From Ianthella basta (Eukaryota; Porifera; Demospongiae; Verongiida; Ianthellidae), in assembly GCA_964019415.1 (NCBI GenBank), contig OZ025868.1, forward strand, positions 12,999,623 to 13,063,622: 64,000 nt of DNA, in the 5' to 3' direction. The translations under genes and the position numbers were made by a program. Below are positions 6,684 to 60,249 of this stretch, piece after piece (position 1 is the stretch's first letter; every line of letters starts with the position of its first letter). The notes under the pieces are model-generated. The model saw only the letters and a list, made by a program, of their open reading frames with translations. It had not been told where the DNA came from and ran no database searches.

Positions 6684-6878
6684 CTTGCTCTTCAGAGTAG
6701 GGAAATCAGAGTCAAGGTAGTGTACCACATCTTGGTGACCTGCTGTAGCTGCAAGGTCTCTGCAAGTTTGACGGAAGAAGTTCTTCTCATACACCCTAAC
6801 TCCAAACTGTGGTACTAGATATTTGACCATGTCCAAGTGCCCTCTCTTGGCAGCCAAATGGAGAGCAGTTTCTTTATG
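6684..6878 (-). CDS. ANK-array exon E31 (last recognised; two ankyrin repeats)
   Basis: 65 codons, HKETALHLAAKRGHLDMVKY then a second repeat TCRDLAATAGHQDVVHYL. It differs from all D exons in its second half and looks like an end cap. It ends TLKSK before a GTAAGA donor, so at least one further exon is expected downstream on the - strand. Confidence 0.85.

Positions 6879-60249: not shown

Follow-up and report, generated by a model that had tools for sequence, protein, structure and literature searches.

Ankyrin exons of a single phase in the sponge Ianthella basta point to the 3' part of a long head-and-ankyrin gene from a large family

We lean towards reading the 64,000-nucleotide stretch of Ianthella basta DNA analysed here (hereafter the window; assembly GCA_964019415.1, contig OZ025868.1, positions 12,999,623 to 13,063,622) as the 3' part of one leftward-transcribed gene of about 112 kb, to which it would contribute 31 ankyrin exons and the terminal exon, and whose predicted product would carry a non-ankyrin head followed by ankyrin repeats. 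Judging by the related heads in the genome, it is apparently not a lone giant but an enlarged member of a family about a hundred strong. Positions outside the window are given in extended coordinates, i.e., as the C1 position minus 12,999,622.

On the minus strand of the window, between 6684 and 60249, we found 31 intact ankyrin exons (20 A, 5 B and 6 C; Table 1). The A exons encode two ankyrin repeats in 62-68 codons, mostly 68 in the window, and the B and C exons encode one repeat each, in 34 and 33 codons, respectively. Every one of the 31 was preceded by AG and followed by GT, had a length divisible by three, started and ended in phase 0 and contained no stop codon. This agrees with a first-pass annotation, made from the sequence alone, which had delimited the same 31 exons as whole numbers of codons and repeats in phase 0; its sum of 1716 residues was reproduced as 1716 codons. 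The script used for delimiting the exons favoured phase 0, yet it was set to flag better-scoring splice pairs in other phases, and none was flagged among the 31 window exons. For the exons at 12383 and 55717 the script picked longer phase-0 variants (at 12383 with a downstream GT). When the exons were concatenated, the 1716 residues exceeded the curated Pfam cut-offs for PF12796 (893 bits) and PF00023 (691 bits), and Ank_2 was matched in 25 stretches at E = 3e-276. Moreover, four adjacent A exons from the flank, when joined, matched solved ankyrin solenoids among the PDB sequences, with NOMPC at E = 1.5e-72 and ankyrin-1/2 and TRPA1 also among the matches; what the array has in common with these proteins is the ankyrin solenoid, and the resemblance is confined to the repeat. 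The window contained no Rfam matches and no tRNAs.

Table 1. Exons, pseudo-exons and 3' end features located in the window, in the order of transcription
Position	Strand	Feature	Remarks
60148..60249	-	B exon, 34 codons, 1 ankyrin repeat	
58939..59120	-	A-type pseudo-exon	acceptor and 5' end damaged, reading frame interrupted
57247..57450	-	A exon, 68 codons, 2 ankyrin repeats	
55717..55815	-	C exon, 33 codons, 1 ankyrin repeat	longer phase-0 variant exists
54663..54764	-	B exon, 34 codons	
53982..54185	-	A exon, 68 codons	
52949..53139	-	A-type pseudo-exon	acceptor lost, frame broken
50980..51183	-	A exon, 68 codons	
47807..48010	-	A exon, 68 codons	
44390..44575	-	short A exon, 62 codons	
41284..41487	-	A exon, 68 codons	
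40431..40631	-	A exon, 67 codons	
38102..38200	-	C exon, 33 codons	
37199..37300	-	B exon, 34 codons	
36738..36941	-	A exon, 68 codons	
35656..35754	-	C exon, 33 codons	
34914..35015	-	B exon, 34 codons	
33377..33580	-	A exon, 68 codons	
32641..32844	-	A exon, 68 codons	
29561..29764	-	A exon, 68 codons	
28525..28722	-	short A exon, 66 codons	
21999..22103	-	A-type pseudo-exon	5' half alone left, stop inside
20751..20954	-	A exon, 68 codons	
19068..19271	-	A exon, 68 codons	
16398..16601	-	A exon, 68 codons	
15375..15578	-	A exon, 68 codons	
14520..14618	-	C exon, 33 codons	
14121..14219	-	C exon, 33 codons	
13261..13362	-	B exon, 34 codons	
12383..12586	-	A exon, 68 codons	longer phase-0 variant with downstream GT exists
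11142..11345	-	A exon, 68 codons	
8676..8879	-	A exon, 68 codons	91% identical to same-place sister-gene exon
8020..8118	-	C exon, 33 codons	
6684..6878	-	last ankyrin exon (A type), 65 codons	same-place sister-gene DNA 92% identical
6134..6151	-	terminal coding exon, five codons and stop, phase 0	same five residues, other stop codon in sister
5890..5895	-	AATAAA, possible polyadenylation signal	

The array does not stop at the upstream edge of the window: the flanking DNA added 27 ankyrin exons, the array reaching 112.2 kb. A gene confined to the window was therefore rejected, and the bounds first drawn, 31 exons over 54 kb, had to be widened to 58 ankyrin exons (39 A, 9 B and 10 C) across about 106 kb. 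All 58 were in phase 0-0 and are thus mutually frame-compatible. Counted by type, with two repeats for each A exon, the whole array holds about 98 ankyrin repeats; two exons of 92 codons are fusions of about 2.7 repeats each. From 5' to 3' the exons are largely arranged in modules of the form C-B-A(n), the exceptions being two C exons in succession at one place and a last C that lacks its B.

Six further 5' exons, e1-e6, were revealed at 118263-112303 (extended coordinates) by comparison with a tandem sister gene, and the joins between them read in one frame. Exon e1 carries a basic KRKR stretch, e3 is the head-domain exon (869 nt, with 289 non-ankyrin residues counted from its ATG, which sits in what we take to be a Kozak-like setting), and e6 is an acidic exon that carries the first ankyrin repeat. 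Together the basic-stretch exon, the head-domain exon and the acidic exon with the first repeat give the conceptual product an N-terminal head of ~480 residues. The lengths of four of the six exons are equal in the gene and the sister, e4 differing by 36 nt and e6 by 6 nt, in both cases an entire number of codons. As modelled, the gene comprises 65 exons, 112,130 bases and 11,417 coding bases; the model starts at e1, and the exon number is at least 65, with the first exon lying further upstream.

At the 3' end, no domain was found after the last ankyrin exon. In canonical ankyrins (ANK1/2/3) the repeats are followed by ZU5-ZU5-UPA and Death domains; a canonical ankyrin was rejected, since the gene model stops five codons past the last ankyrin exon. 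A blastn search with the terminal exon and its 3' side returned only itself, and the sister's equivalent was seen in the sequence by eye. Downstream of the gene, sulfotransferase frames occupy positions 1695-3129 of the plus strand (the Sulfotransfer_2 match covers 2608-3129, and the earlier frame was recognised by eye), and repeats of 97 and 38 bp, built around a TCATGTGACAGTCACATGA-like unit, stand in tandem at 4041-4281, between the 3' end of the gene and the sulfotransferase. Upstream of the sister, minus-strand frames at 149.2-152 kb (extended coordinates, L030) contain a putative P450 signature, a motif which is presumably the cytochrome P450 heme-binding signature.

Within 3.2-152 kb (extended coordinates), e1-e6 and the last ankyrin exon were each present exactly twice, once in the gene and once in the sister. 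This implies that there are no internal gene ends of known type, and the earlier view that the exons form one array was upheld. Introns of up to 9069 bases (median 983) and transposon remains inside one of them could instead suggest many short independent genes standing side by side. However, we consider such an arrangement extremely improbable, given that just two sets of known gene ends occur in 149 kb and that these lie at the outer ends of the gene and the sister. In an intron at 24640-27075, on the opposite (+) strand, we detected a weak RVT_1 match (E = 0.038, below the cut-off) and a GIY-YIG match (E = 1.3e-5); taken together, these frames presumably resemble a Penelope-like retroelement.

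The sister gene also informed us about the growth of the array. We found 17 intact ankyrin exons in it, all 17 in phase 0-0, part of the sister reading N. For 12 of the 17 the nearest exon of the gene stood in the same order, and the five weaker matches (73-82% identical) were out of order. The sister exons are thus largely colinear with those of the gene, which means that the gene holds long extra stretches; the two differ by about 40 ankyrin exons (58 versus 17 found, with part of the sister reading N). When the locus was compared with itself, block copies of at least 700 bases, introns included, were found to be 75-97% identical, the largest block pair measuring 4.7 kb at 96.8% identity. 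The copies differ in exon content and lesions. Taken together, these comparisons indicate that multi-exon blocks were duplicated at several times and that some of the copies died. The first-pass annotation had described growth by exon amplification; amplification itself is borne out, but not exon by exon, since on these sequence comparisons several exons were often copied together as a block. An assembly artefact, e.g., two haplotypes placed end to end, might produce a pair such as the 4.7 kb one, but it is very unlikely to account for blocks that span this whole range of identity with differing exon content and lesions. Judging from this anatomy, with splice sites at repeat boundaries and a single phase, blocks or exons could be gained, lost or skipped frame-neutrally.

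One array exon, at 81401-81604 (extended coordinates), has intact splice sites and one in-frame stop. It stands upstream of all 31 window exons, after 15 array exons, and a nearly identical intact copy is located at 95407. If this exon were always included, translation would terminate at 1418 residues, before any of the window exons is reached. Because of its in-frame stop, a giant protein requires the exon to be skipped; the exon is symmetric, so that skipping costs no frame. The presence of 31 open phase-0 exons within one array could suggest one constitutive giant protein made of ankyrin repeats alone. Nevertheless, with a non-ankyrin head upstream and a stop codon in one of the array exons, we regard this as hardly probable.

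The stop-bearing exon also bears on whether the gene is a swollen and decaying copy, which at best would encode a protein of 1418 residues or less and in which the window exons would be relics of recent block duplications. The in-frame stop lies upstream of every window exon, three clear pseudo-exons were found in the window (Table 1), an exon fragment is present further upstream at 100934-100968 (extended coordinates), and the head exon of the sister, at 144689-145557 (extended coordinates), carries one in-frame stop, its length and splice sites being otherwise kept. Of the four pseudo-exons counted before, the fourth is only a doubtful trace at 41716-41767 (nhmmer E = 0.036); the birth and death of exons then suggested is nonetheless supported. 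Against decay stand the terminal exon and the six 5' exons, which are intact in the gene, and the openness and constraint of the array exons. Across the whole array, 38/39 A, 9/9 B and 10/10 C exons were open. Random 68-codon frames from the introns of the gene were open in 4.9% of 20,000 samples, and chance is excluded as an explanation for 38 open A exons out of 39. In addition, the median pairwise dN/dS, taken over the pairs with 0.1<dS<1.2, was 0.42 for the A exons (419 of 465 pairs), 0.45 for the B exons (29 of 36) and 0.55 for the C exons (30 of 45), although for some nearest exon pairs the values were near or above 1, resting on few changes. By this sequence measure the array exons are under purifying selection. 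With dN/dS at about 0.4-0.55, the decaying copy appears unlikely to us.

The A exons vary most where an ankyrin repeat would touch its ligand. Of the 31 A exons with 68 codons, 29 were compared; in these the mean entropy was 1.55 at the binding-surface positions and 0.95 elsewhere (permutation p = 0.003), and the nonsynonymous difference was 0.34 versus 0.19 (p = 0.002); both p values are optimistic, since the exons are related. The two exons left out were the stop-bearing one and that at 8676, an outlying penultimate A exon that had been excluded beforehand. We take the binding-surface positions used to be the DARPin-randomised set. Ankyrin families in general vary at such positions. Surface variation together with the family context favours a recognition role for the array.

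The array might also serve as a cassette bank, with transcripts joining the head to chosen subsets of phase-0 exons and thereby yielding many solenoids from one gene. The frame compatibility of all 58 ankyrin exons, the possibility of skipping the stop-bearing exon without a frame shift and the concentration of variation at binding positions are consistent with this, and such isoforms, with one repeat per exon, are described for brown algal ROCO genes (PMC11378527, in the part of the paper used here). However, frame compatibility by itself does not establish exon choice, and we hold the cassette bank to be somewhat doubtful.

The family context comes from the head. A search of the genome with the head returned 110 matches at E ≤ 1e-3, the gene and the sister included and some of them partial, and many of these stand in tandem on C3 and C5. 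With this 289-residue non-ankyrin exon upstream, the statement of the first-pass annotation that the product has no other domain had to be abandoned. The last ankyrin exon gave at least 149 matches in the genome; among those listed, the identity was 100% in the gene, 97% in the sister, 66% in the next and 52% or less in the others. The order of head and then ankyrin exons was seen in the gene, the sister and two further members, on C3 and C5, that were read by profile match. Within about 22 kb the C3 member shows the head, a single B piece, five A pieces, of which one is divided between two frames, five C pieces and the cap; the C5 member shows the head, alternating one- and two-repeat pieces and the cap. 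When family gene spans were estimated by position, 25 of the 110 heads were entered and 13 were paired with the best-scoring terminal-exon matches listed. Among these 13 spans the gene was the longest (108 kb), one measured 89 kb, a pairing that may skip a missed terminal exon, and the other 11 covered 12-40 kb. Elsewhere in the same genome (C4, C1, C15, C3 and others), uninterrupted ankyrin frames reach up to 2557 codons, which is a different style of expansion. On contig C96, COX1 was found with nine internal TGA codons, as would be expected of animal mitochondria, though this is not specific to sponges.

No relative of the head was recognised by Pfam, NCBIfam or PDB profiles, and none was confirmed in the viral and prokaryote collections. 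When 11 heads and 14 half-heads were scanned against Pfam, no TRADD-N model appeared, and no family was matched by more than one member. A C-type lectin neck from PDB matched the helical half at E = 0.003 and the whole head at E = 0.018, with no stretch passing alone, and a sulfotransferase from PDB matched the C-terminal half at E = 0.042; both were held for chance. When TRADD-N profiles were run genome-wide, PF13820 gave one match elsewhere (E = 4.08), and no match at E ≤ 1 was obtained with PF20694. As the TRADD-N profile test failed, we have not filed the gene as a TRADD-N member, and we infer membership rather than assign it.

The head is nevertheless probably TRADD-N-like, as its sequence pattern and its context suggest. 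Judged by eye, the aligned C-terminal half reads strand-helix-strand-turn-strand-helix-strand, and a serine is invariant in 14 of 14 aligned heads at the turn between two strand-like stretches (strands likewise by eye). In front of this serine stands G, N, D, H, Q, C or K, and the description 'tiny' thus fits only in part. Moreover, three divergent head matches are preceded on their own strand by Pfam Death matches, at distances of 0.6, 0.7 and 3.5 kb, and at one locus (L058) the frames of both Death and head were read. This adjacency was read by eye among the best 150 of 437 candidate Death matches, and a rough hand estimate gives about 0.2 cases by chance. No Death exon was found in the gene itself, and in the Death-bearing member on C9 no ankyrin exon of the A, B or C type was present in the 8 kb after the head. 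A dense tandem cluster of Pfam Death-domain matches was also noticed on C6, at 9.05-9.39 Mb.

The nearest family is the TRADD-N expansion of Amphimedon, which on sequence grounds is likely kin, without the gene being filed as its member. According to Kaur et al. (2021), TRADD-N is an RRM-like domain whose beta2-beta3 turn bears a conserved motif of a small residue and a serine, and in the part of their paper used here they count 357 TRADD-N proteins in Amphimedon, which mostly have Death-like domains, then TRADD-N and then a variable C-terminus, with ankyrin repeats among the commonest domains in the latter (PMC8195603). As with the Amphimedon NCOA6-clade TRADD-N proteins, we deal with a large lineage-specific family (357 there, 110 head matches here), with a constant N-terminus that is read here as Death-like/TRADD-N-like, a fast-evolving C-terminus and a conserved serine at the presumed turn. 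In contrast to the Amphimedon set, however, the TRADD-N Pfam models miss this head, and this member has 58 ankyrin exons. In the main text of that paper the words 'exon' and 'intron' are absent, and exon structure is not treated there.

With regard to exon structure, the array probably works like the brown algal LRR-ROCO system, although it is not a member of it; the parallel is one of analogy. In the passages used here, Teng et al. (2024) describe genes in which a repeat equals an exon in one phase, with exon shuffling, splice isoforms and variable sites facing the ligand, and they propose the proteins as immune receptors (PMC11378527). The likeness extends to repeat units that are exons in a single phase, growth by exon duplication and a variable binding face. 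The brown algal genes encode LRRs in 72-base exons of phase 2 with a ROC-COR GTPase, and alternative splicing is reported in them (PMC11378527). Here the gene is that of an animal, and it combines ankyrin exons of mostly 99/102/204 bases in phase 0 with a Death/TRADD-N-like head. In brown algae, NB-ARC-TPR genes are reportedly the counterpart of the LRR-ROCO repeat-exon genes. Arrays in long ankyrin proteins are built by copying units of several repeats, up to a limit of about 120 repeats (PMC7314423); at about 98 repeats the product would be long, yet under that limit. The part of that paper used here treats proteins and not exon arrays, in contrast to the exon array at this locus. Among the papers listed by directed literature searches (exon structure and intron phase of ankyrin genes), none dealt with sponge ankyrin arrays at the level of exons.

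Taken together, we would tentatively envisage a sponge immune-receptor family in which Death/TRADD-N-like heads are joined to banks of phase-0 ankyrin exons, block-grown, sampled by skipping and differing in content between individuals, which would make it an animal equivalent of the receptors that brown algae encode in repeat exons. In our main reading the head would combine a Death-like domain with a TRADD-N-like switch, the ankyrin solenoid would be the recognition part, and the members would form an intracellular immune-type receptor or adaptor set. Binding by the solenoid might reconfigure the head and thereby recruit Death-fold or other effectors, after the model outlined by Kaur et al. 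(PMC8195603). Most of the array would then be translated, with the stop-bearing exon skipped.

The family and the exon logic hold more interest than the size of the gene. Should the head prove to be Death/TRADD-N-like and the array a sensor, an early-branching animal would possess a recognition system that is modular at the level of exons. If this is true, the evolution and the possible splice diversity of the binding part could be read straight from the genome, and the locus, in which a gene and its tandem sister differ so widely in exon number, makes the proposal testable.
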